A stretch of 64,000 nt of DNA from Aquisphaera giovannonii (GTDB lineage: Bacteria > Planctomycetota > Planctomycetia > Isosphaerales > Isosphaeraceae), in the NCBI RefSeq assembly GCF_008087625.1, contig NZ_CP042997.1, positions 9,672,001 to 9,736,000 on the forward strand, given 5' to 3'. The position numbers and the translations under genes are program-made. The first letter of the stretch is position 1; each line of letters starts with the position of its first letter. A model generated the notes under the pieces. It was given only the letters and a program-made list of their open reading frames with translations. It searched no databases and was not told the DNA's origin. This document shows positions 1,965-13,109 of this stretch, piece after piece.

Positions 1965-3278
1965 ATGATCCCGGTGTCATGTTCCTGCGGGCGGCGATTC
2001 AAGGCGGAGGACCACCACGCCGGCAAGCGGACGCGATGCCCCGTGTGCGGCACCCTCCTGGTGATCGGCCAGGCGGGCGTCGCGACTCCCCGTCCGGACC
2101 CGCAGGGCGTGATACCCCCCTCGGGCGTGACCGACAACGGCGAGGTCCCTTCCTGGTGGTTCCCCGCCGGCGGCCCTGGCGCCCACCCGGCCGCAGGCAC
2201 GGTGGCGACGCCCCCCACCACGAGGAGCGGCACCGGCAGCGGCAGCGGGACCGGCAGCTCGAGTTCCGGCGATCCCGACGAGATCAAGACGGCCGTCTTC
2301 CCCCAGCAGCCACCCGCCGCGCGCAGGCCGGCGCACGCCGAGGCCGCCGGCCGGCGGCGCAAGATGATCCTCGCGGGCCTCGGCGTCGGAGCCCTCACGC
2401 TGCTGGTCGGCGCCTCGGCCCTCTACTGGCTGACGCCCCGCGACGAGGGCCGCGGCATTCCGTGGGGGCCCAGGGTGCCCGGCGTGCCCGATCCTCCCGG
2501 CGGCGCCGTCCCGAAGGAGGAGGAAGGCCCCGGGGTGAAGAGGGAGCCGGAGCCTCAGCCCCCGGGGGGCGGGCCCAGGCTCCGCCTGATCGTCCCGGCC
2601 TACTTCTATCCCATCGGCAAGGGCCTGGATGACTGGAAGCGCCTCGGCAAGGCCGCGGGCAAGGTCCAGGTCGTCATCATCGCCAACCCGAGCAGCGGCC
2701 CCGGCGACCGGCCGAATCCCGACTATTCCCGGGCCATCAAGGATGCGCACGACGCCGGCGCCGTCGTGATCGGCTACGTCAACACCAAGTACGGGGCCCG
2801 CCCGATCGCCGAGGTGCAGGCCGATTTCGGCCTCTGGGTCAAGTTCTATCCCGAGGTCCGCGGCTTCTTCCTCGACCAGCAGTCGCAGGACCTCCGCAAC
2901 GTCCCCACGTACATCGAGATCCGCGACGCCGCCAGGAGGGCGCTCAAGGATGCCCTGCTCGTGAATAACCCGGGCGCCGTCTGCGACGCCGCCTACGTGA
3001 CCCAGCGATGCGCCGACGCCACCTGCGTCTTCTCTGCCTACGAGGGCTTCGGCTTCTTCGAACTGCCCCCCACCTACTCCAAGAGCGACCCCTCGCGATT
3101 CGCGGCCCTCGCCTGCCAGATCAAGGGGGAGGACGCCATGCAGCAGGCGATCCATGACGCGATCATGAAGCGGATCGGCTACATCTACATCTCCGACACC
3201 CCCAGCGGGGACAACCCCTGGGGCCGCCTGCCCACCTACTGGGAGAAGGAAGTCGACGCCATCCACCGCGTCGAGTGA
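1965..3278 (+). CDS. zinc-ribbon, membrane-anchored spherulin-4-like protein
   Basis: A protein of 437 residues. Residues 1-35 form a small zinc ribbon (CSCGRRF, then CPVCG) of the type often placed at the N-terminus of planctomycete membrane proteins. A low-complexity Gly/Ser/Pro linker follows, then a membrane helix at about residues 134-157. The second half (about 206-437) resembles the spherulation-specific family 4 domain, recognised from the opening LIVPAYFYP, the HDAGAVVIGYVNTKYG stretch and the GFFLDQQ segment. In family terms this is a TIM-barrel-like, possibly carbohydrate-active module, and no reaction is established. The start at 1965 (MIPVSC) is preferred over 1941 because it places the zinc ribbon at the N-terminus. 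It stands alone between the kinase and a small gene. Confidence 0.75.
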   Translation: MIPVSCSCGRRFKAEDHHAGKRTRCPVCGTLLVIGQAGVATPRPDPQGVIPPSGVTDNGEVPSWWFPAGGPGAHPAAGTVATPPTTRSGTGSGSGTGSSSSGDPDEIKTAVFPQQPPAARRPAHAEAAGRRRKMILAGLGVGALTLLVGASALYWLTPRDEGRGIPWGPRVPGVPDPPGGAVPKEEEGPGVKREPEPQPPGGGPRLRLIVPAYFYPIGKGLDDWKRLGKAAGKVQVVIIANPSSGPGDRPNPDYSRAIKDAHDAGAVVIGYVNTKYGARPIAEVQADFGLWVKFYPEVRGFFLDQQSQDLRNVPTYIEIRDAARRALKDALLVNNPGAVCDAAYVTQRCADATCVFSAYEGFGFFELPPTYSKSDPSRFAALACQIKGEDAMQQAIHDAIMKRIGYIYISDTPSGDNPWGRLPTYWEKEVDAIHRVE

Positions 3279-3490
3279 GCCTCTTCCTCGCCAACGGCGA
3301 GCCTCCTGTTGCGTGGTGCGGACACGGGCGATGAACCCCGGCCACAAGGCCCCGCCCCACGGCGGCGAGGAGTCACCGGCCGGCCGCGCGGGCGTTTAGC
3401 TCTTGTCACGGACGCCGGGCCCTGGACGCGGACAAGCCCCTCGGGGCGTCTCCGGCGTCCCCCTGTCTTATGCCATTTCCCAACATTCCA

Positions 3491-3520
3491 CCACCCCGGG
3501 GCGAGACCTCGCCCGGGGTG
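3491..3520 (+). other. strong hairpin ahead of the small Cys-pair gene
   Basis: CACCCCGGGGCGAG and CTCGCCCGGGGTG are complementary apart from one unpaired C, giving a stem of about 13 bp with a two-base loop. It ends a few bases before the Shine-Dalgarno-like GAGGAGACG of the gene starting at 3542. It could be a leader hairpin or the terminator of the spherulin-like gene; no T-run follows. It also argues against starting translation at 3470. Confidence 0.4.
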
Positions 3521-3541
3521 CGTGACGAGGAGACGGCCCTC

Positions 3542-3877
3542 ATGGCACACTCCGACTGGATCCTTCCGCGCGCCGAGTCCGGCTGCCACAGGGTCTTCCA
3601 CCCCGACCGCCAGTCGGCCGAGGGCCACCGCATCGCGCTGGAACTCTGGATCCAGGCGACCGGACACACCCGGCCCGACTACCGCGTCGTCGCCTTCCGA
3701 TGCAAGAACTGCGGCGGCTACCACGTCGCCCGTCGGAAGGCCAAGGATCGCACCAAGGCCCCCGCCAGGCTCTTCGCCCACTCGTTCAACCCCTGCGACG
3801 AGCCCGAGGCCGCCGGCATCATCCCCGACGCCTCCCCGACCGACGGCGCCCTCGACGGCCCCAGGCCATGGCTCTGA
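3542..3877 (+). CDS. small hypothetical protein with CxxC pair
   Basis: A 111-residue protein starting MAHSDWILPRAESGCH, preceded by a good ribosome site (GAGGAGACG). An upstream in-frame ATG at 3470 would translate through a strong hairpin and is less likely. The only motif is FRCKNCGGYHVARRK near the middle, a CxxC pair followed by GGYH and basic residues, which suggests one half of a metal-binding knuckle or nucleic-acid contact. The tail is acidic and proline-rich. I do not recognise the family. It has no operon partner on its strand. Confidence 0.55.
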   Translation: MAHSDWILPRAESGCHRVFHPDRQSAEGHRIALELWIQATGHTRPDYRVVAFRCKNCGGYHVARRKAKDRTKAPARLFAHSFNPCDEPEAAGIIPDASPTDGALDGPRPWL

Positions 3878-4262
3878 GCCGACCCGCGGGTCGCCCTGGT
3901 TGAGTGCGGACCGCGCATCGAGGCTTCGATGCGATTCCAACCGCAAAGGTGCTCGAACATCGATTGCGGATCGGCCTCGCCTGGATCCCCGGATCCGGGA
4001 CCGCGACCTGGCGCCTCGAGGAGGCCTCCGAGTGCCCGGGCGGAGCCGCAAGTGACGCCGCGGAATCACCCCGAGCATCGGCGAACCGATGCGGGCCCGC
4101 ACGACGCCAGGAGCTTCGGGTCCGGGGCGATCGTCGCTCGCCTCGCCGTTCCCCACCATCCGCCCTGGGCATCCCGCGGAGGCATCGATCGGATGCGCAC
4201 GGGGTCCCATTTCTGGAGAGAGCCGGTCTTACCAACCCACTCTCCGGCGTCATCGAGGGGGA
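3878..4262. other. intergenic region between convergent genes, one small hairpin
   Basis: No gene is supported here. A perfect stem CGCATCGA / TCGATGCG with loop GGCT lies at 3914-3933, just downstream of the small gene ending at 3877, and may end its transcript. The rest has no recognisable repeat, RNA or promoter. Confidence 0.4.
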
Positions 4263-4736
4263 TCAACCTCTCCCGCGAGGCAGCGTAGGCAGGATCTCCG
4301 CCCGAGGGAAAGCCGGATGGTCCCCCAGCCAGCCCTTCCCTTGGGGCAGGGCCGACGGGTTCGTCGGCGAGGCCGGCGCGCCCGCGACGGTCGCGGCGAT
4401 GTTCGCGGTATCTCCGGGGGACGCGGGGCCGTCGTGGCCGGAGGTCACCTGGGCGCCGCGAGGGGAGGTCGCCAGGCCGGCCAGCGAGAGGGCGGCGGCC
4501 CCGTCGGCGGACTCGGCATCGACCCGGAGGAGCGCCCGGTTCCCGTGCGCGGCCTGGAGGGCGTTCCGATCCACGGCCGTGCTGTAGGTATTGTTCGAGA
4601 CCAACACCAGCCGCCCTTGATACGCCACGAACCCCGCCCCGGCCCCGGAGAGCAGCGAGCGGCCTTCCATGGGCTCGAGCGAGGGGGCGTAATCAGTCCG
4701 TCGACGCCGGGAGCCGCCGCGAGCGGTGCGTGCCAT
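4263..4736 (-). CDS. short protein with planctomycete LEPxxR-type N-terminal motif
   Basis: A 157-residue protein beginning MARTARGGSRRRRTDYAPSL. A basic stretch is followed directly by LEPMEGRSLLSG. This matches the LEPLEDRxLLS pattern seen at the start of many planctomycete exported or surface proteins, where it is thought to act as a lineage-specific sorting signal. The remainder is Ala/Gly/Pro-rich, with one moderately ordered stretch (GFVAYQGRLVLVSNNTYS) and no catalytic motif. It is much shorter than most proteins carrying this signal, so it may be a small secreted protein or a remnant of a larger one. An upstream in-frame start at 4985 is unlikely because that extension has no protein-like features. 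Confidence 0.55.
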   Translation of the reverse strand: MARTARGGSRRRRTDYAPSLEPMEGRSLLSGAGAGFVAYQGRLVLVSNNTYSTAVDRNALQAAHGNRALLRVDAESADGAAALSLAGLATSPRGAQVTSGHDGPASPGDTANIAATVAGAPASPTNPSALPQGKGWLGDHPAFPRAEILPTLPRGRG

Positions 4737-5251
4737 GGTGCCTCTCCGTGGATGGGCCGCCTCGCCGACTCTCGTCGGCCGGGAATTGCGGCGAAGGCGC
4801 CCGATGGGATCAACTCCGACGCCGCGGCGGTCCGCGTCCTGCGCCGTCCGCCCGGGGCGGACGCGATCCGCGGGGCCGGCCACATCATAACACGCCGGGC
4901 CCGATCGGGCGAACCTCGACCATCGCGCGGGCGGGGCCCGCGCCTCGGTGCTCGAGTCGAGGCGGCCGGCAACCTCGATCGGCATCAGGACAGCCGCGTT
5001 CGCCCCGCGGCCGGCGTCATGAAATCGCCTTCGAGTCCGACCGTGACGCTTCCCATGGGAGAGCGGTGCACCGTCCCCTCACCTGGTCGACCTTCCCGGG
5101 TGGCCGCGGTGGGAGGGGGAGGGGTCCAGGATCGGAGCGACCGGGCCCGCCTCCAGCCTTCCGCCGCCAGGAGAAGGACGGCAGGCCTCACTCCAGCCCC
5201 TCCACCCTGCGCTTCTCATCGGGCCTCCTCGTGTCCTCCGTGCCACCGTGG
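4737..5251. other. 515-bp gene-free stretch
   Basis: No frame with protein-like composition, tRNA or repeat is evident. On the minus strand a TATGAT hexamer (4889-4884) with a poor -35 (TTCGCC, 18 bp away) could be the promoter of the LEPxxR-motif gene. The right-hand end is the downstream region of the long minus-strand operon and shows no convincing T-tailed terminator. Confidence 0.35.
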
Positions 5252-6358
5252 TCAGCCCGCATTCTCGTCCTCACCGCGGAGGCCGCGGCCGCGGGAGGAG
5301 GCGCCGGCGGAGCGCTCGCGGATGGTCCCGGGCTCGTGGGCGTTGGAGAGGGCGGTGTCGTAGCTGATCTCGCCGCGCTGGTAGAGGTCCAGGAGCGCCA
5401 TGTCGATGGTCTGCATCTGGTGCTTGCGGCCCATCTGCATCTCGCTGAACAGCAGGTGCGGCTCCCCCTCGCGGATCCGCTTCCGCACGGCGGGCGTGGC
5501 GATGCCGATCTCGCAGGCGAGGACCAGGCCCTTCCCGTCGGCCCTGGGGAGCAGGCGCTGGGCCAGCACGGCCTGCAACGTATTGGCGAGCTGGTACATG
5601 ATGTTATTCTGCTGCTCGTGCGGGAAGACGCTGAAGATCCGCTGGATCGTCTGGACGACGTCCGGCGTGTGCAGGGTCGCGAGCACGAGGTGCCCCGTCT
5701 CCGCGGCGGTCAGGGCGGTGGAGACGGTCTCCAGGTCGCGCATCTCGCCGATCACGACCACGTCGGGATCCTGGCGGAGGACGTGGGTCAGGGCCTTCTG
5801 GAACGAGGGGACGTCGGTGAGGACCTCCTGCTGGACGACGATGCTGTTGCGGTTCTCATGGACGTACTCGACGGGGTCCTCGATCGTGATGATCTTGGCC
5901 CGCCGGCCGCGGTTGATCGTGTCGACGAGGTAGTTCAGCGTCGTGGTCTTGCCGTTGCCCGTCGCGCCGGTGACCAGGATCAGTCCGTTGGGCAGCCTCG
6001 CGAGCTCGTCGATGACCGGCGGCAGGCCGAGCACCTCGCGGCCGCGGACGGTGGTCTCGCAGAGGCGGATCGCCATCTCCGGGATGCCGGCGTGCAGGTA
6101 GATGCTCGCCCGGCACCGCCCCACGCCGTCCCAGTATCGTGAGAAGCAGAGCTGCCACTCGCGGTCGAAGATCGCGCGCTGCCTCTCGTTCATCAGGCCG
6201 TTGGTCATCTCGCGGAGCGACGCCTCGTCCAGCGGCTCCCCCTCGATCAGGCGGATCTCGCCGTTGACGCGGAACGCCGGGCTCAGGCCGCGAATCAAAT
6301 GCACGTCGCTGGCGCCGTACTTCCGGGCGCCCTTGAGGATCTTCTCCATCGTCCACAT
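5252..6358 (-). CDS. PilT-like type IV pilus retraction/secretion ATPase
   Basis: A 368-residue GspE/PilT-family hexameric ATPase. Features in order are the N-terminal domain (KYGASDVHLIRGLSPAFRVNGEI), Walker A GATGNGKTT near residue 130, the Asp box IITIEDPVEYVHE, the Walker B region RQDPDVVVIGEMRD near residue 195, and the His box TGHLVLATLHT near residue 217. In the family such proteins power pilus retraction and twitching motility. No pilin or assembly gene is nearby. It is the last gene of the minus-strand operon, 32 bp after the TPR gene. The start at 6358 (MWTMEKIL) has GGAGGG upstream; 6349 is an alternative. The tail after about residue 345 is Arg/Gly-rich and not part of the fold. 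Confidence 0.9.
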   Translation of the reverse strand: MWTMEKILKGARKYGASDVHLIRGLSPAFRVNGEIRLIEGEPLDEASLREMTNGLMNERQRAIFDREWQLCFSRYWDGVGRCRASIYLHAGIPEMAIRLCETTVRGREVLGLPPVIDELARLPNGLILVTGATGNGKTTTLNYLVDTINRGRRAKIITIEDPVEYVHENRNSIVVQQEVLTDVPSFQKALTHVLRQDPDVVVIGEMRDLETVSTALTAAETGHLVLATLHTPDVVQTIQRIFSVFPHEQQNNIMYQLANTLQAVLAQRLLPRADGKGLVLACEIGIATPAVRKRIREGEPHLLFSEMQMGRKHQMQTIDMALLDLYQRGEISYDTALSNAHEPGTIRERSAGASSRGRGLRGEDENAG

Positions 6359-6390
6359 CGCGTCAGGCCCTCCGCCGGAAGCCCGGCATC

Positions 6391-7170
6391 TCAACGACCG
6401 CCGAAGAGCCGCCGCAGGCCGCGGCCGATGGACCAACCCCCTTCGGAGAGGCCCTCGAGCAGCCGGCTCGCCTCGACGTTTCGGGGCGAGAGGTCCAGGC
6501 AGCGGGCCAGGCTCTGGCGGGCCTGGCGGTCGAAGCCCAGGGCGAGCTCGCAGCGGGCCTGGATCAGCCAGGGGTAGAAGCTCGCCGGCGAGGCCTCGGC
6601 CGCCTGCCGGGCGCGGAGGAGCCCCTTGCTCGGCTTGTCGTACTCGAGGTAGATCAGGGCGATCTCCAGCGGGACCAGCCAGTCGCGGTCGGCCTGCACG
6701 GCCTTGTCGAAGCAGTGGGCGTCCACATCGTCGCGGGCGGCCACCAGCATCTCGCCGCGGACGATCCAGCGGTAGGCGGAGGTCCCCTCCTGGCGCAGCG
6801 CCCCGTCGATCATCTCCGCCGCACGCGTCCGGTCGCCGATCCGGAGCAGCGCCTGGGCCCGGCCGGCGAGCAGGTCCGGCTGGTTGCGGAAGAGCTCCAG
6901 CGCCTTGCCGGCCCAGAGCTCGGCCTCGGGATACTCCCCCAGCATGATCAGCATCTGCACCTGGCCGACCCAGCCGGCCACGAGCGACCGGTCGAGCTCC
7001 AGGGCCCGGGAATAGTACCGCAGCGCGTTCTCGTAATGCCCGCGGCGGCGGTCCGCGTCCGCCTTCCCCAGCCATTCGCGGTCGTCCCGCGAGGCCTCGC
7101 TCGGGGCGGGGCCCAGTTCACGTTCATCCCCCGGTGCCGCGTCGAACTCGAGCTGATTGAATCTCGGCAA
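6391..7170 (-). CDS. TPR-repeat protein
   Basis: A protein of about 259 residues made largely of tetratricopeptide-like helix pairs, for example ALRYYSRALELDRSLVAGW, EAELWAGKALELFRNQPDLL and ARCELALGFDRQARQSLAR. TPR proteins act as protein-binding scaffolds. There is no signal peptide or membrane segment. I chose the TTG at 7170 as start because GGAGAGGGGG lies just before it. An ATG at 7431 would extend the protein 87 codons through sequence that reads as an out-of-frame shadow of the preceding gene, with which it would overlap by 217 bp. It sits between the zinc-ribbon membrane protein and PilT in one operon, suggesting an adaptor role. Confidence 0.8.
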   Translation of the reverse strand: MPRFNQLEFDAAPGDERELGPAPSEASRDDREWLGKADADRRRGHYENALRYYSRALELDRSLVAGWVGQVQMLIMLGEYPEAELWAGKALELFRNQPDLLAGRAQALLRIGDRTRAAEMIDGALRQEGTSAYRWIVRGEMLVAARDDVDAHCFDKAVQADRDWLVPLEIALIYLEYDKPSKGLLRARQAAEASPASFYPWLIQARCELALGFDRQARQSLARCLDLSPRNVEASRLLEGLSEGGWSIGRGLRRLFGGR

Positions 7171-7214
7171 GGTCCCCCCCTCTCCGTCACGGTCGCCGCC
7201 CGCGGCGGCCTGAC

Positions 7215-8255
7215 TCAGCGGATGAATCGGAATCGGGACAGCGGGGCAATCCGCAGCCAGACCCCGCCCTCCACGTCGCCGGGGTCGATGAGCCCGGCGA
7301 CCTTCCAGAACTCCGCCGAGCTGCCGCGCTGGGCCGCGGCGGCCGTCATCGTCGGCAGCACCAGCAGGTAGTGCTCGGGGACCTCGATCTCCATCCGTGC
7401 GGGGAGCCGGTCCGGGACCAGGGGCGTCCACGACACGGGCTCGCCGTTGATCGACAGACGGCCGTCCTCCCAGACGACCCGGTCCCCCGCGAGGCCGATC
7501 ACCCGATCGATCACCTGGTTGTCCTCGAGGTAGTCGCGGCGATGGCCTCCCGCCCTCATCGGGTCGGTCACCTCGCGGCGGGAATTCACGCTCGGCCTGG
7601 TGACGACGACGTCGCCCCGCCTCGGGCCCGTGATCGCGAAGGCCCAGTTATTCACCAGGAGCACGTCGCCCGCGGCGAACGGTCGGGAATCCGCCATGAG
7701 CGCCAGCGGCGCGGCGATCCCCCTCAGCACGACGGACAGCAGCGCGTACAGGATCGTCGTCACGAAGAGCGTGAACAGGAACAGCTTCCGGCGATCGACG
7801 GCGTGCTCGCGCATCAGGGCGCTCACCACGGACGAGGCATGGGCACTGATCGCCAGGCCGATGAAGATCGGCCCGTCAGTCGAGCCCCATCGCAGGAGGC
7901 CCAGGAGCAGGAACACCGCGTAGGAGCCCAGGTAGAGCCAGCCCCAGGTGACGTTCCCCGCGTGGATCTGGGCCAGGCCCGGGACAATCAGGCGGCGGAT
8001 CGTGCCCGGCGGCGGCGGGGTGAACCAGCCGTCCGCGGCGATCGCGCCCAGCAGGCCCCCGCGGACGCTCCGGGCGGCGTCCTTCGCCCGGTAGACGGGC
8101 TTCCGGTTGACCAGCCGCCGCATCTGCCGGGCCGACCGCGAGGCGCGCGGGGGATTCACGTCGATCGCGGAGCCGGCCAGGGTCAGGGAGGTCCCGCATC
8201 GCCCGCAGGCATCCAGGCCCGGCATGTTCTCGAACCGGCAACTCGGGCATTGCAT
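7215..8255 (-). CDS. zinc-ribbon multi-pass membrane protein with degenerate signal peptidase I (S26)-like domain
   Basis: A 346-residue protein. It opens with a zinc ribbon (Cys 3, 6, 17 and 20: MQCPSCRF, ACGRCG). Three hydrophobic segments follow (around residues 93-120, 128-147 and 157-178). A periplasm-type S26 fold then carries GDVLLVNNWAF, RRGDVVVTRP and DRVIGLAGDRVV near residue 250. The S26 catalytic serine box (SxSMxPT) is absent: the aligned stretch reads MADSRPFAAGD. The general-base lysine that precedes RVIG in true signal peptidases is Asp. By family knowledge it therefore should not cleave signal peptides and is better seen as a membrane scaffold or substrate-binding pseudoenzyme. 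It lies 45 bp downstream of the DUF2997 gene. Confidence 0.8.
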   Translation of the reverse strand: MQCPSCRFENMPGLDACGRCGTSLTLAGSAIDVNPPRASRSARQMRRLVNRKPVYRAKDAARSVRGGLLGAIAADGWFTPPPPGTIRRLIVPGLAQIHAGNVTWGWLYLGSYAVFLLLGLLRWGSTDGPIFIGLAISAHASSVVSALMREHAVDRRKLFLFTLFVTTILYALLSVVLRGIAAPLALMADSRPFAAGDVLLVNNWAFAITGPRRGDVVVTRPSVNSRREVTDPMRAGGHRRDYLEDNQVIDRVIGLAGDRVVWEDGRLSINGEPVSWTPLVPDRLPARMEIEVPEHYLLVLPTMTAAAAQRGSSAEFWKVAGLIDPGDVEGGVWLRIAPLSRFRFIR

Positions 8256-8300
8256 GGCTCGCCAGCCTTTCCCCTTCCGCCCCCTCGAGCCCGTCCGCGC

Positions 8301-8519
8301 TCAGTCCAGGCCGAACCGGCGGACCCGCTGCTCGACGCGGGCCATCGCCTGGACGCCGGCCTCGTGGTACTCGTCGGTCAACTGGCGCGACTCCTCGCGG
8401 CCGACGACCTGCGCGATCGCCTCCGCGACGTCCACGCACCGCGGCCCCTTGATGCCGATCGTCCGCACGACGACCTTGCCGTCGGCGCCGATCTCGATCT
8501 CGATCTCCTCGTCGCTCAT
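8301..8519 (-). CDS. DUF2997 family small protein
   Basis: A 72-residue protein starting MSDEEIEIEIGADGKVVVRT and continuing GIKGPRCVDVAEAI. This matches the DUF2997 pattern of a beta hairpin around a (P/A)DGK turn followed by KGPxC. The family is of unknown function and commonly lies next to DUF1257 and a Ycf46-like ATPase, as here. The single conserved Cys in GPRC could bind a metal or a cluster, but this is inference. An ATG further upstream (8555) lacks the good GGAGCG ribosome site of the chosen start. It lies 42 bp after the DUF1257 gene. Confidence 0.85.
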   Translation of the reverse strand: MSDEEIEIEIGADGKVVVRTIGIKGPRCVDVAEAIAQVVGREESRQLTDEYHEAGVQAMARVEQRVRRFGLD

Positions 8520-8561
8520 GGCCGTTCGCTCCGATCCGAGGGGGGTGACCGACAATCCGGC

Positions 8562-9026
8562 TCAGCGATTCCGGACCCGAATGTGGATGGCCTGGTCGGC
8601 CCCCACTCGTTCCTCGATGATGGTCATGTCCCGATCCTTCAGCTCGGTCATGAGCCGGTGATACGCATACTGCTGGGCGACGCGGCCGACGAGGGCCTCG
8701 CCGATCTGCTTCAACTCCGCCTTGGACCGCCCAGCGCCCTCCACGCAGAGCTTCAGGGCGCCCCGGGCGTCGCGGCTGAAGATCGCGAGGATGCCGTCGC
8801 GCTCGACGACCAGACGCTCGTCGGTCCCGGCGCCGCCGGCGAGGATCTCGGAGTCCTCCAGCTCGATCTCGGCGCGGGCGGTCGCCTTCTGGCCCGCGCG
8901 GACGCTGGAGTCCTGCATGGCCCGCGCGGTGGCGTACCCCATGCTGCTGACCGCCGCGGTGATCGCCGCGGAGAGGAGCGGCCACGAGGCGACCAGCAGC
9001 GGGCTAACGACGAGGACGGTGCTCAT
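8562..9026 (-). CDS. DUF1257 (Ycf35-like) protein
   Basis: A 154-residue protein of the DUF1257 family, the family of the chloroplast/cyanobacterial Ycf35 protein. The C-terminal half carries the recognisable parts: ALVGRVAQQYAYHRLMTELK, followed by a short strand DMTIIEERVG and IHIRVR. The N-terminus (VLVVSPLLVASWPLLSAAITAAV) is hydrophobic and may touch the membrane, which is not typical of the cyanobacterial members I know. Biochemical function is unknown in the family. The gene starts 33 bp after the AAA+ ATPase and precedes DUF2997, the arrangement repeated in many bacteria. Confidence 0.8.
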   Translation of the reverse strand: MSTVLVVSPLLVASWPLLSAAITAAVSSMGYATARAMQDSSVRAGQKATARAEIELEDSEILAGGAGTDERLVVERDGILAIFSRDARGALKLCVEGAGRSKAELKQIGEALVGRVAQQYAYHRLMTELKDRDMTIIEERVGADQAIHIRVRNR

Positions 9027-9059
9027 GGGATTGGGCTCCGTGGGAGGTCTCGGTTCCTG

Positions 9060-10775
9060 TCAGATCTCCAGCTTGCGGCGGGCCTCCGCCGGCTCGGCCG
9101 GGGCGCGGGCGGGCGTGCCCGTGGACGGCCGGGCCCGGCCCTGCGCCCAGTTCCGCAGGCGGTTCAGCTCCTCGCTCATCGTCCGCGAGAGGGGCACGGC
9201 CTGCGAGAGCTCGGCCCGCAGGGTCTCGGTGTCCAGCTCGCCCCCGCGGCTGAAGGCGTCGAAGAGGCCCGCGACGATCGCCTCCTCGATCTCCGCCCCG
9301 CTGAAGCCCTCGCTCAGCTTCGCCAGCGCAGCCACGTCGAAGGCGTCGGGATTCCGCCGTCGCTTCAGGAGGTGGATCCGGAAGATCTCGCGCCGCTCCT
9401 CCTCGTTGGGGAGGTCCACGAAGAAGATCTCGTCGAGGCGGCCCTTGCGGAGGAGCTCCGGCGGGAGCTGGCTGACGTCGTTGGCCGTGGCGATGACGAA
9501 CACCGGCGCCGTCTTCTCGGAGAGCCACGTCAGGAACGTGCCGAAGACGCGAGACGCGGTCCCGCCGTCGCTGCCGGCCGACCCCGCCGATCCGGCGAAG
9601 GCCTTGTCGATCTCGTCGATCCAGAGGATCGCCGGCGCGACCGATTCCGCAGTCTGGATCGCCCGCCGCATCGACTCTTCGCTGGAGCCGACCAGGCTGC
9701 CGAAGACCCGGCCGATGTCGAACCGCAGCAGCGGCAGCTTCCAGAGGCTGGAGGCCGCCTTGGCGCAGAGGCTCTTGCCGCACCCCTGCACGCCCAGCAG
9801 CAGCACCCCGCGCGGGGATGGCAGGCCGAACCGCGCGGCCCGTTCGCTGAACGCGGCGCTCCGCTTGCGGAGCCAGTCCTTGAGGTTCTCCAGCCCCGCC
9901 ACCGAGGCGAACTTCTCGTGGCTCTCGTAATACTCGAGCATCCCGCTCTTGCGGATGATCTGCTGCTTCTCGCTGAAGACTACGCTGACGTCGTCGGCGT
10001 CGAGCTTCCCGTCCAGGATCAGGGTCTTGGCGAAGACGTTCTCCGCCTCCTTGAGCGTCAGCCCGCGCGCGGCGTGGACGAGCTTCTCCCGGGCCTCGCC
10101 GTCGAGGTTGATCGTGATCCGCGGCTGGTCCTTCACGTCCTCGATGATCCGGTCCAGCAGGCCGTTGAAGTCCTGCACGGAGGGCGACCCGAACTCGACG
10201 ACGGCCACGTCCTTCGAGAGCTCGGTCGGGATCTTCATGATCGGCGAGACGAGCACCACCGTCTTGTACGTGTCGCGGAGGGCCTGGGCCACGTCCCGCA
10301 GGCGCCGGATGTTCCGGAGGTTGCCGGGGCAGACGCGGATGTCCAGGTGGTCGTGCAGGTCCTTGAAGAGGAAGATCGCCGGGTCCACGTGGGCGACCAC
10401 CGCGTCCAGCCCGGCGACCGGGTCGCAGGTGCTCCCCGCGCCCCCCTTGGACCTTTGCGGGTCCGCGCCGAATTTCACCAGCCCCTGGCTGCACGTCCAG
10501 ACGTGGAGCGTCTTGTTGCGCCGCTTGGCGATCTCCTGGAGCCGCTGCTCGAGCCGCTCCTCCTCCCAGGTGACGACGTAGATGATCGGATACCGCGCGC
10601 GGATCAGGACCTCGAGCTCGTCCGGCGGGCGGCGGGCCTGCGCCGGGGGCGACGACGGCGCGGCCGTAGCGGGCTGGGACGCCCGGGCGGGCGCGGCCTG
10701 TCGGGGCGCCTCGCGCTGCGGCGACGCGGGCTGGGGGGCGGCGTGGTGTCCGTTGCGCGGGCTGTCGTCGCTCAT
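9060..10775 (-). CDS. Ycf46-like AAA+ ATPase
   Basis: A 571-residue AAA+ ATPase. An Ala/Pro-rich N-terminus (1-55) leads into the Ycf46-type N-domain (DELEVLIRARYPIIYVVTWEE) with degenerate P-loop-like architecture. The active AAA+ module follows, with Walker A GVQGCGKS near residue 327, Walker B ILWIDEIDKAF near 381, sensor 1 VFVIATAND and the arginine-finger region LLRKGRLDEIFFVDLP. The LPNEEERREIF and GFSGAEIEEAI segments are typical of the FtsH-like/Ycf46 clade. In cyanobacteria Ycf46 has been linked to inorganic carbon uptake; elsewhere its role is open. The start codon overlaps the stop of the preceding 79-aa gene by four bases, so translation is probably coupled. It is the likely motor of this operon. 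Confidence 0.88.
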   Translation of the reverse strand: MSDDSPRNGHHAAPQPASPQREAPRQAAPARASQPATAAPSSPPAQARRPPDELEVLIRARYPIIYVVTWEEERLEQRLQEIAKRRNKTLHVWTCSQGLVKFGADPQRSKGGAGSTCDPVAGLDAVVAHVDPAIFLFKDLHDHLDIRVCPGNLRNIRRLRDVAQALRDTYKTVVLVSPIMKIPTELSKDVAVVEFGSPSVQDFNGLLDRIIEDVKDQPRITINLDGEAREKLVHAARGLTLKEAENVFAKTLILDGKLDADDVSVVFSEKQQIIRKSGMLEYYESHEKFASVAGLENLKDWLRKRSAAFSERAARFGLPSPRGVLLLGVQGCGKSLCAKAASSLWKLPLLRFDIGRVFGSLVGSSEESMRRAIQTAESVAPAILWIDEIDKAFAGSAGSAGSDGGTASRVFGTFLTWLSEKTAPVFVIATANDVSQLPPELLRKGRLDEIFFVDLPNEEERREIFRIHLLKRRRNPDAFDVAALAKLSEGFSGAEIEEAIVAGLFDAFSRGGELDTETLRAELSQAVPLSRTMSEELNRLRNWAQGRARPSTGTPARAPAEPAEARRKLEI

Positions 10776-11011
10776 GATGTCGTCCCCTCTGCGGCCGAAG
10801 CGGGAGCGGCGCGATGGGCGGCGAGGCCGGCGATCCGGCCGAGCAGCCGACGCGTCCGGTCGTCCCGGGTCGGCAGCTTGCCGAGCACCTCGGCCATCGT
10901 CGCGGTGATGCCGAAGGCGAAGATGCGCCCGTCGGGCTGGATCGTGATCTCGCTCTCGGCGGATTCGTCCACGGCCTCGCGTGCCGGGCCCTTGTACGAT
11001 CGTCCGTTCAT
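10772..11011 (-). CDS. small conserved-looking protein of the AAA+/radical SAM operon
   Basis: A 79-residue protein overlapping both neighbours by four bases (ATGA with the radical SAM gene upstream and with the AAA+ gene downstream). This tight packing is strong evidence that it is real. The central segment SEITIQPDGRIFAFGIT has the same strand-PDGR-strand shape as the DUF2997 protein four genes later. A helical Arg-rich part (DDRTRRLLGRIAGL) follows. No named family is recognised. It could be a diverged DUF2997-like partner of the ATPase, which is inference from the motif only. Confidence 0.7.
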   Translation of the reverse strand: MNGRSYKGPAREAVDESAESEITIQPDGRIFAFGITATMAEVLGKLPTRDDRTRRLLGRIAGLAAHRAAPASAAEGTTS

Positions 11012-11835
11012 TCGATGACCCTCAGCCCCGCGGCCTGCGCGAGCTCCCGGGCGCGGTCGCCCTCGCCGGGGCCCAGCGGCCGGGCCAGCTCCGGATGGGA
11101 CGCCGCCTTCCAGCTCGGCAGGTAGCCGTCACGGACGCTGAATCCGGCGTCCGGCAGGTTGGCCTTCATCCAGCCGACGATCGGCCGGAAGCAGCATGCG
11201 AAGTGCCCCGGCAGCAGCAGGTGGCGGACGATGAGCCGGCCCTGCCCCGCGGCGATCTTCAGGTTCCGCGTCACGATCCGCAGGTAATCGTCGATGCCCG
11301 CGATCCGCCGGGCGCACGCATCGTCGCCGAATTTGAAGTCGGCGAGGTAGACGTCCGCCACGCCGTCGAGCAGTGCGAACGCCTCGGGCGTGCCGTGGAA
11401 GTCCGACTTCCAGACGATCGGCGGCAGGGGCGACGAGCATGCCGCCATCGCCCCCAGGATCGCCGGCAGGTGGATCGTCGGCTCCCCGCCGACCCATTGG
11501 AGGGTCCGCGCGCCGAGCGAGCGGCCCTCGCGGACCGCCTCGCCGAGGAACTCGGCCGTCAGCGGCCGGCCGTGGCGGGCGTCGAAGGCGTTCACGCCCG
11601 CCACGCAGAAGGCGCAGCGGAGGTCGCAGCCGGAGAGGTAGAACAGGTGCGACGGCACGAGCTCCCACTCTTCCCCATACTCGACCCGGTGCTTGAACAC
11701 GCGAGCCTCCGTCCCCGCGCGGCACGGCCCCCGCCCGCCGGACTCGCGGTCGGCGCCGCAGCGATGTTCGCAGAGCCCGCACGAGCGATAGTGCATCCGG
11801 GCCCGATCGAGCAGGTCGCCTACCGTCCCATCCAC
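11008..11835 (-). CDS. radical SAM protein, PflA/PflX-like
   Basis: A radical SAM enzyme of about 275 residues with the cluster motif CDLRCAFC (CxxxCxxC). Four or more further Cys in SCGLCEHRCGADRESGG and GPCRAG lie before it, typical of the PflX-like group that carries an extra metal site. LQWVGGEPTIHLPAI is the GGEP motif. Such proteins generate a 5'-deoxyadenosyl radical; the target here is unknown. I chose GTG at 11835 because GAGGTGA precedes it at good spacing. The frame stays open to a TTG at 11913, but that stretch contains the probable promoter (TTGACT/CATTAT). First gene of the eight-gene minus-strand operon. Confidence 0.85.
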   Translation of the reverse strand: MDGTVGDLLDRARMHYRSCGLCEHRCGADRESGGRGPCRAGTEARVFKHRVEYGEEWELVPSHLFYLSGCDLRCAFCVAGVNAFDARHGRPLTAEFLGEAVREGRSLGARTLQWVGGEPTIHLPAILGAMAACSSPLPPIVWKSDFHGTPEAFALLDGVADVYLADFKFGDDACARRIAGIDDYLRIVTRNLKIAAGQGRLIVRHLLLPGHFACCFRPIVGWMKANLPDAGFSVRDGYLPSWKAASHPELARPLGPGEGDRARELAQAAGLRVIE

Positions 11836-11857
11836 GCCACTCACCTCGACCCGGAAA

Positions 11858-11928
11858 ACGACAGTTGTCCTACGACATCCGTAGATAATGCCCCTTCGTC
11901 GGACAACAGTCAATAGGACAAATGTCCC
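11858..11928. promoter_or_regulatory. three GGACAA/TGTC operator-like motifs around the promoter
   Basis: GACAGTTGTCC lies at 11860-11870, GGACAACAGTC at 11901-11911 and the inverted repeat GGACAAATGTCC at 11916-11927. They sit respectively in the transcription start region, over the -35 and spacer, and just upstream of the -35. The half-site geometry (GACA, two bases, TGTC) resembles operators of BlaI/MecI/CopY-family repressors (TACAnnTGTA type). The identity of the regulator is inference, and none is encoded in the window. Confidence 0.45.
11885..11913 (-). promoter_or_regulatory. probable sigma70-type promoter of the radical SAM/AAA+ operon
   Basis: On the minus strand TTGACT (11913-11908) is followed after 17 bp by CATTAT (11890-11885). 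This is a good -35/-10 pair about 50 bp ahead of the proposed GTG start at 11835. The region is visibly less GC-rich than its surroundings. Confidence 0.5.
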
Positions 11929-12098
11929 AATCGGCGGCCGGCGGACCCGAGGGGTGTCGCCCCGGCCCGGCGACCGTCACCCCGCCCCCTTGCCGGAGGC
12001 GAGGCGGCGATGTGGAATGAGGTCCGCTCATGCCCCATGGCGACGGGGGACGAGGTCCGTCTCACCGCCGCTCCCACCCGCCGGATCGAGGACGAGCC

Positions 12099-13109
12099 AT
12101 GAATGCCCGCATGATTCACCTTCCCGTTCTGGCGGTCCTCGCGGGCTTCTGCACCGGAACCCTTGCGATGGCGGCGCCACCGGCCGCCGAGGGGCACGAG
12201 GCCGGCAAGCCGGTGCCCGGGCTGCGGAAACTGATGGACACGCCCCTGCGGGACACGTCGATATGCCGAGGCCCGGACGGGACGTACTACCTGACCGGCA
12301 CGCGCGAGCCGTTCTGGTCGTACAACGAGGGCATCCGCGTCTGGAGGTCCAGGGACCTCCGGGCGTGGGAGCCGCTGGGGATGGTCTACCGATACGGCGA
12401 GAGCCCGTGGCACAGGCCGTATCTGGACGCGAAGAGGCCGCTCTGGGCTCCCGAGATCCACCACCTCAAGGGTACGTTCTGGCTGACCTACAGCCTCCCC
12501 GGCTGGGACGGCACGGGCAGGACCTCCGGCTGCGGACTGCTCCGGAGCACCACGGGCAAGGCCGAGGGGCCGTACGAGGACATGCATCCGTCCGAACGTC
12601 TCGGCGACGAGATCGACGCCTCGCTGTTCCGGGACGACGACGGCAGCGTGTATTTCCTCTGGCACAGCGGCAAGATCGCGAAGCTGAAGCCGGACATGAC
12701 CGGGCTTGCCGAGCCCTACCGCTGGCTCCGGACGACGGGCACCGACCCGGCCCCCGGCCATCATTCCGGCCTCTGCGCCGGGATCTTCGGCCGCGACTCC
12801 TTCGACCACGTCGGCTACGAGGGGATGTTCCTCTTCAAGGCCAACGGCCGCTATTACCTCTCCTGCGCCGAGCTCATCGACGGCCGCTACTCCTGCGTGG
12901 TCGCCGAGTCGAAGGCCCTCCTGGGCCCCTACTCACCCCGCTACGAGGCGATCCCCCACGCCGGCCACAACGTCTTCTTCCGGGACGCCGAAGGCCGGTG
13001 GCTATCCACCTTCTTCGGAAGCGACGCCTCGGCCCCCTGGCAGGAGCGCCCGGGCGTGCTGCCCATCCACTTCGACGCCGACGGCCACCTCCGGCCGGGG
13101 GCAGAATGA
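12099..13109 (+). CDS. secreted glycoside hydrolase family 43-like protein
   Basis: A 336-residue protein with an N-terminal signal peptide (IHLPVLAVLAGFCTGTLAMA, cut near AAPPA). It has a five-bladed-propeller glycosidase layout. LRDTSICRGPDGTYYLTGT carries the expected catalytic base Asp. DEIDASLFRDDDGSVYFLW carries the pKa-modulating Asp. GYEGMFLFKANGRYYL carries the general-acid Glu. Family members act on arabinan, xylan or galactan side chains; the substrate is not readable here. Start at 12099 with GAGGACGAG upstream; an ATG at 12030 only adds a non-signal-like extension. It is divergent from the radical SAM operon. Confidence 0.8.
   Translation: MNARMIHLPVLAVLAGFCTGTLAMAAPPAAEGHEAGKPVPGLRKLMDTPLRDTSICRGPDGTYYLTGTREPFWSYNEGIRVWRSRDLRAWEPLGMVYRYGESPWHRPYLDAKRPLWAPEIHHLKGTFWLTYSLPGWDGTGRTSGCGLLRSTTGKAEGPYEDMHPSERLGDEIDASLFRDDDGSVYFLWHSGKIAKLKPDMTGLAEPYRWLRTTGTDPAPGHHSGLCAGIFGRDSFDHVGYEGMFLFKANGRYYLSCAELIDGRYSCVVAESKALLGPYSPRYEAIPHAGHNVFFRDAEGRWLSTFFGSDASAPWQERPGVLPIHFDADGHLRPGAE

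Follow-up and report, generated by a model that had tools for sequence, protein, structure and literature searches.

Proteins of the DUF1257 (Ycf35) and DUF2997 families and the Ycf46-type AAA+ ATPases are widespread and retained in plastids, and no function has been agreed for them. Their genes cluster in cyanobacteria, on plasmids and in phages, often with an iron-sulphur partner, which is fed7 in cyanobacteria and a Fer4_12 radical SAM gene elsewhere. Two other motors are relevant here: p97-type ATPases extract and unfold clients, and PilT drives filament retraction. The subject of this work is an operon of the planctomycete Aquisphaera giovannonii, located in a window of 64,000 nucleotides (assembly GCF_008087625.1, contig NZ_CP042997.1, 9,672,001 to 9,736,000; positions below are those of the window). 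The operon contains the same three families as the known clusters, but in it a PflA/PflX-like radical SAM enzyme, a separate small protein (s79), an S26-type pseudo-peptidase, a tetratricopeptide repeat (TPR) protein and a PilT-family ATPase are fixed as well. We tentatively infer that the products of all eight genes make up one membrane-associated machine of the Planctomycetes-Verrucomicrobia-Chlamydiae (PVC) bacteria, which would remodel proteins by means of two motors. All component families and the core cluster were already known, and the combined operon is new in the literature searched: no published description was found in a search that left out most subscription journals. The operon gives DUF1257, DUF2997 and the Ycf46-type ATPases fixed, interpretable partners, namely a radical SAM enzyme common to other phyla and a pseudo-peptidase, TPR protein and PilT found in PVC bacteria.

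Conservation of the eight-gene operon

According to gene calls and translations, the operon consists of eight contiguous minus-strand genes (11844-5252; Table 1). The radical SAM and s79 genes overlap by 4 bp, as do s79 and AAA+, and the gaps from AAA+ through PilT are, in order, 33, 42, 45, 44 and 32 bp, in agreement with the preliminary description of the locus. That description had placed the operon at 5252-11928; its downstream end holds, and its upstream limit was loose, as the first gene most likely starts at 11844. The genes downstream vary among relatives, so the operon boundary was set after PilT.

An alignment scan with the AAA+ protein over 84,980 species gave 411 relatives. The best 80 of these fall within Verrucomicrobiota, Planctomycetota and Lentisphaeria, apart from a few metagenome-assembled genomes (MAGs) without assignment. 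Isosphaeraceae AAA+ matches weaker than about E 1e-100, representing a common core-only paralogue or FtsH-type ATPases, were excluded as members. Profile annotation of 85 loci (L096-L180), many of which are cut by contig ends, found all eight genes in the window order in 44, and none of the 49 loci with at least seven of the eight genes had a deviating order. In the first phylum search and region reads the full order was found in L062, L096 and L097, and L061 is the same up to its contig end. To escape AAA+-seeding bias, the DUF1257-like profile alone was used as a seed in 292 Planctomycetota and 241 Verrucomicrobiota genomes. Full-length matches were present in 8 and 4 genomes, respectively, and every locus read (8/8 and 3/4) contained the operon, with s79 too divergent for scoring in three of them (L202, L203, L206). 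The eight-gene operon is conserved across distant Planctomycetota and Verrucomicrobiota, yet patchy. In both the profile-annotated and the DUF1257-seeded loci the full set recurs and not the core alone, as had been predicted. Chance adjacency of unrelated genes, for which only the absence of a named system speaks, is refuted by the identical order across phyla despite variable flanks and is hardly credible.

The eight genes also change together. In a mirror-tree analysis of 46 loci, the between-gene correlations of pairwise distances ranged from 0.66 to 0.86 (Spearman) over the eight genes. Compared with the nearest relatives, the ratios of nonsynonymous to synonymous change (pN/pS) are 0.18-0.70. 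DUF2997, AAA+ and PilT evolve slowly (0.18-0.30), and the S26-like gene is the fastest of the eight (0.7). Together the eight genes form a single co-evolving unit. Pilus-based macromolecule uptake, as in planctomycete crateriform structures, was considered as a role and rejected, since the distribution of the operon is far too patchy for a trait that is widespread.

Proteins encoded by the operon

The AAA+ protein (Pfam AAA, 4.3e-27) has an intact second domain, D2, with Walker A (GVQGCGKS) and Walker B (ILWIDEID). In its AlphaFold2 model (pLDDT, the predicted local distance difference test, 82), residues 1-52 are disordered and residues ~53-277 form a first domain, D1, without Walker A. All 50 matches listed by Foldseek against the PDB were p97/Cdc48 or Drg1, with both domains aligned (E from 8e-21), from which residues ~53-277 can be read as a degenerate AAA+ domain. 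The model points to a p97/Cdc48-like ATPase with two domains in tandem, D1 degenerate and D2 intact, which corrects the preliminary description of a Ycf46-like AAA+ protein. Like p97, Cdc48 and Drg1, the modelled protein has a pair of stacked AAA+ domains, and its sequence has a hydrophobic pore loop, LVG. Unlike p97/Cdc48, it lacks the D1 Walker A and the p97 N-domain, its domains are differently arranged, and it scores below the NCBIfam CDC48/p97 family cut-off (108.8 vs 802.65 bits).

The last gene encodes a bona fide PilT, as had been proposed. It matches TIGR01420 over residues 4-343 with 391.5 bits (cut-off 319.1), and Walker A, the Asp box, Walker B and the His box are invariant in 49 sequences. 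Like the PilT/PilU ATPases of type IV pilus retraction it belongs to the family over its full length and keeps every motor motif; unlike them it falls in a clade of its own, is not beside pilB, pilC or pilin genes, and is fixed to the TPR protein and the AAA+ ATPase. This clade (29 sequences from full and minimal operons, support 0.85) stands apart from the PilT proteins encoded elsewhere in these genomes. Three such proteins of Aquisphaera, all outside the clade, are 35-39% identical to the operon PilT. A further PilT-like gene of the genome, L183 (C1:3659507), is sister to the operon clade (support 0.99) and contains one in-frame TGA. In the neighbouring protein, TPR repeats are supported by Pfam.

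The S26-like protein matches Peptidase_S26 (5.9e-12) and PF10502 (46.3 vs 22.9 bits) and is just under the TIGR02227 cut-off (45.6 vs 47). The catalytic Ser and Lys are absent in all 49 alignable sequences of 50, L123 not being alignable there. The protein thus appears, from its alignment, to be the catalytically dead pseudo-peptidase of the signal peptidase I fold that the preliminary description had recognised. Its N-terminus has a zinc-ribbon-like CxxC...CxxC.

The radical SAM domain is supported by Pfam (1.9e-9). As in PflA, PflX and NrdG, the core motif is CxxxCxxC (C73/C77/C80). Seven more cysteines are conserved: C177, C217 and C218, and the N-terminal C22/C25/C29/C41, a region that presumably corresponds to the four-cysteine region of PflX. 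None of the NCBIfam activase models was reached at its cut-off (PFLA 21.0 vs 231.75 bits; best relative 43.7), and the nearest models for its relatives, PflA (2e-11) and NrdG2 (5e-11), are also below theirs. The enzyme differs from PflA, PflX and NrdG in three extra conserved cysteines, in the lack of an adjoining glycyl radical enzyme and in scores below every equivalog cut-off. It is probably of the glycyl-radical-enzyme-activase type, but only PflX/PflA-like, which qualifies the earlier term PflX-like.

DUF2997 (PF11211) is clearly matched (49.1 bits, gathering score 24.1; 5e-13), and Cys28, within G-x-K-G-x-x-C, is invariant in 50/50 sequences. The DUF1257-like protein narrowly matches PF06868 (23.0 vs 22.2 bits) through its C-terminal 39 residues only; 38 of its 44 relatives match DUF1257 at E<=0.01. 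Its N-terminal helix is hydrophobic, and the AlphaFold2 model (pLDDT 71) gave no PDB match at E<=0.001.

The small protein s79 had been taken for a mere linker. It has no family match in Pfam or NCBIfam, yet is kept in every lineage with the operon as a hairpin protein with the motif E-hhh-PDG-hh, which resembles DUF2997. When its profile was run against 23,965 open reading frames, the first match other than s79 (E 0.76) fell in a radical SAM protein, in its C-terminal tail; the protein belongs to L094, another planctomycete, where its gene adjoins an AAA+-DUF2997 module. A profile of six such tails matches s79 with a probability of 72% and DUF2997 with 87%, and outscores 100 column-shuffled controls (s79, 25.8 vs best shuffled 21.1; DUF2997, 31.9 vs 13.8). 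Direct similarity between s79 and DUF2997 covers only 19 columns (probability 48%), a lead and not proof of homology. The three sequences share a short hairpin motif, which does not imply common descent, and may dock on the same partner. A PqqD/RRE-type peptide-recognition domain was considered for s79 and rejected, as Pfam searches over 41 members and a PDB profile search gave no match.

A possible two-motor machine and its alternatives

In the mechanism that we propose, the AAA+ hexamer would work at the inner membrane, where it would pull or unfold a client; DUF1257, DUF2997 and s79 would be client adaptors or regulators. The client would be presented by a membrane receptor, namely the pseudo-peptidase, joined by a pseudo-rhomboid in many relatives. 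Through the TPR protein this receptor and the unfoldase would be coupled to the PilT hexamer, which would act on a filament or platform resembling a type IV pilus. One of the small proteins or the client itself might be modified by the radical SAM enzyme, with DUF2997 Cys28 as one candidate site. The likeliest client would be a component of a pilus/pseudopilus-type assembly, in which case the net effect would be its disassembly, repair or regulated retraction. In G337-G340 the locus is reduced to AAA+-TPR-PilT, and the assembly has no PVC-type DUF1257 (these are MAGs and may be incomplete); such minimal loci suggest that the two motors are directly linked. Where the operon is divided between two contigs (G335, G336 and G343), the PilT, TPR and S26 genes also remain joined. 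The operon points to an unrecognised coupling of an unfolding motor with a PilT motor, and it makes the unfoldase client and the radical SAM target concretely testable. The membrane-linked, ATP-driven complex of the preliminary description is plausible; that it modifies or moves a partner we, too, only infer.

Several observations weigh against this reading. The window operon contains no pilin or PilC, and the downstream genes are not conserved. Matched domain by domain with p97, the AAA+ protein has a template modelling (TM) score of ~0.4 and a root-mean-square deviation (rmsd) of 12-16 A, so its D1/D2 arrangement differs from that of p97. The S26-like protein has two hydrophobic segments, a topology derived from hydropathy only. 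The window lacks the rhomboid gene of many relatives and has a divergent GH43 gene upstream instead. Finally, the core is commonly met elsewhere in modules that have no PilT, TPR or S26 gene, which makes it independent of a pilus motor.

The rhomboid-family protein (PF01694, Rhomboid; DUF1751) is encoded 25-57 bp upstream in ~20/49 loci. No catalytic His is visible and the GxSG serine is mostly replaced, as aligned by eye (2/20 gene calls are frame errors). There is precedent for such a receptor: inactive rhomboids are able to hand clients to AAA+ enzymes, and the bacterial rhomboid YqgP of Bacillus serves the AAA protease FtsH as an adaptor, without proteolysis (PMC7231995). As in YqgP-FtsH and in Derlin-p97 of endoplasmic-reticulum-associated degradation (ERAD), many relatives link the AAA+ gene with inactive membrane peptidases; the window differs in having an S26-type inactive peptidase and no rhomboid, attached protease or ubiquitin. 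It is unlikely, though conceivable, that the operon is a counterpart of the Derlin-p97 dislocase, by analogy and not by descent, in which a degenerate-D1 ATPase would work with inactive S26/rhomboid receptors and PilT coupling, and the radical SAM enzyme would mark the client.

The preliminary description counted the radical SAM enzyme among the additions made by this operon. Activase-type radical SAM genes, however, accompany the core in Actinomycetota and Bacillota and adjoin AAA+ in Spirochaetota, so the enzyme is not a PVC addition. In Paenarthrobacter, Rhodococcus, Paenibacillus and Bacillus the plasmid-borne AAA+ gene is accompanied by DUF2997/DUF1257 and by a radical SAM gene of the Fer4_12 kind; on a Treponema succinifaciens plasmid (L207, 6345-8500) the Fer4_12 radical SAM and AAA+ genes lie between VgrG and baseplate-V, contractile injection genes. 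The four-part core (radical SAM, AAA+, DUF1257, DUF2997) is old and mobile, and the S26-TPR-PilT part is its PVC extension.

The distribution of the enzyme also bears on a second explanation, namely a maturation machine around the radical SAM enzyme. AAA+, DUF1257, DUF2997 and s79 would deliver, open or recycle the activase target, and S26-TPR-PilT would localise or export the product. This is only slightly less likely than the two-motor reading. The activase-type enzyme (Fer4_12/NrdG-like) occurs with PilT-free AAA+/DUF2997 modules in the four plasmid genera above and in L094, and adjoins AAA+ in Treponema. In cyanobacteria, fed7 (4Fe-4S) is clustered with ycf35 and DUF2997 (PMC4284462). The invariant DUF2997 cysteine and the ten conserved cysteines of the enzyme fit as well, as do the operons split over two contigs in G335, G336 and G343: the radical SAM, s79 and AAA+ genes remain undivided on one contig, and DUF1257-DUF2997-S26-TPR-PilT are on the other. 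On the other side, the minimal AAA+-TPR-PilT loci have no adjoining radical SAM gene, several core modules lack one, no glycyl-radical motif was spotted by eye in the operon proteins, and the enzyme scores below the cut-off of every activase model.

That the operon is a regulator related to carbon uptake or photosynthesis, the role put forward for cyanobacterial Ycf46/Ycf35, is very improbable. AAA+, DUF1257 and DUF2997 are homologous to the cyanobacterial proteins, and Ycf46 is tied to CO2 utilisation according to the passage of PMC12172450 that cites Jiang 2015. The hosts, however, are heterotrophic by lineage (planctomycetes, verrucomicrobia and others), the partner genes encode membrane and pilus-type proteins, and the AAA+ protein is a member of a PVC subfamily that is remote from those of cyanobacteria (best cyanobacterial plasmid match, 46%). 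Cyanobacterial plasmids carry AAA+ with Hsp70/GrpE or defence-like genes and without radical SAM. In L208 (Pseudanabaena plasmid, 2568-8512) and L098 an Hsp70-like gene accompanies the AAA+/DUF1257/DUF2997 module, with GrpE too in L208.

Phages also carry AAA+, one of them with DUF1257 and DUF2997; in Rhizobium phage RHph_I4 (L217, 3821-7143) the three genes are close together. The full eight-gene set was not seen on plasmids or phages, which yielded core modules only, and a tblastn search of plasmids and phages with the window DUF2997 gave no match. The Aquisphaera genome itself has a second, core-only DUF1257-DUF2997-AAA+ copy (L066, C1:777000-796900), so that elsewhere the core operates without the five remaining genes. 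This module is followed by a 330-aa protein without a Pfam match that recurs in L090. About 2.5 kb from the module is a large CRISPR (clustered regularly interspaced short palindromic repeats) array with more than 46 copies of a 32-bp repeat, GTCGCCCCCCACGCGGGGGCGTGGATTGAAAC; in L066 the two features lie at 2499-6530 and 9279-11432.

A conflict or defence system against phages or mobile elements would fit the patchy distribution, the presence of the core on plasmids and phages near toxin, RloB and nuclease genes, and the proximity of the second module to the array. It is nevertheless quite unlikely. PADLOC returned generic AAA+ matches only (IetA, 9e-19) and no system, no defence genes appear in the flank listings of the eight-gene operon (the flanks were not scanned systematically), and co-evolution with slow DUF2997, AAA+ and PilT is unlike that of arms-race genes.

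Control region and variable neighbours

The single sigma-70-like promoter match in 5000-12200 is just upstream of the radical SAM gene, and no terminator-like sites were found inside the operon; both rest on consensus matches only. Two GACANNTGTC boxes flank the promoter-like site (Table 1), where 0.7 KACANNTGTM is expected per whole 64 kb. We take such boxes at an operon promoter to resemble BlaI/CopY-family operators. In the relative L061, TACAAATGTC is found at the equivalent position.

Table 1. Genes and putative control sites of the operon (window positions)
Feature	Position	Strand	Basis
Radical SAM enzyme, putative activase type, 278 aa, GTG start	11008..11844	-	gene call, Pfam/NCBIfam, alignment
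s79, conserved 79-aa small protein	10772..11011	-	gene call, alignment of relatives
AAA+ ATPase, 571 aa, predicted degenerate D1 and active D2	9060..10775	-	Pfam, alignment, model, Foldseek
DUF1257(Ycf35)-like protein, 154 aa, PVC-type	8562..9026	-	Pfam, alignment
DUF2997 protein, 72 aa, ATG at 8519	8301..8519	-	Pfam, alignment
S26-like predicted pseudo-peptidase, membrane-anchored	7215..8255	-	Pfam, alignment, hydropathy
TPR protein, 259 aa, TTG start (TTG 7170)	6391..7170	-	gene call, Pfam
PilT-family ATPase, 368 aa	5252..6358	-	NCBIfam, alignment, tree
Putative sigma-70-like promoter, TTGACT-N17-CATTAT	11885..11913	-	consensus match only
Putative operator GACAGTTGTC, KACANNTGTM type	11860..11869	.	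consensus match
Second putative operator GACAAATGTC, opposite side of promoter	11917..11926	.	consensus match

The GH43 gene upstream of the operon starts at 12030. Verrucomicrobiota loci often have an extracytoplasmic function (ECF) sigma factor and a ~75-aa protein upstream. In Limisphaerales-type relatives the AAA+ and DUF1257 genes are separated by that of an extra two-helix membrane protein of ~100 aa, which ends in PLSRDELxKARSKL (L105, 11576-11881, and at least 13 further loci).

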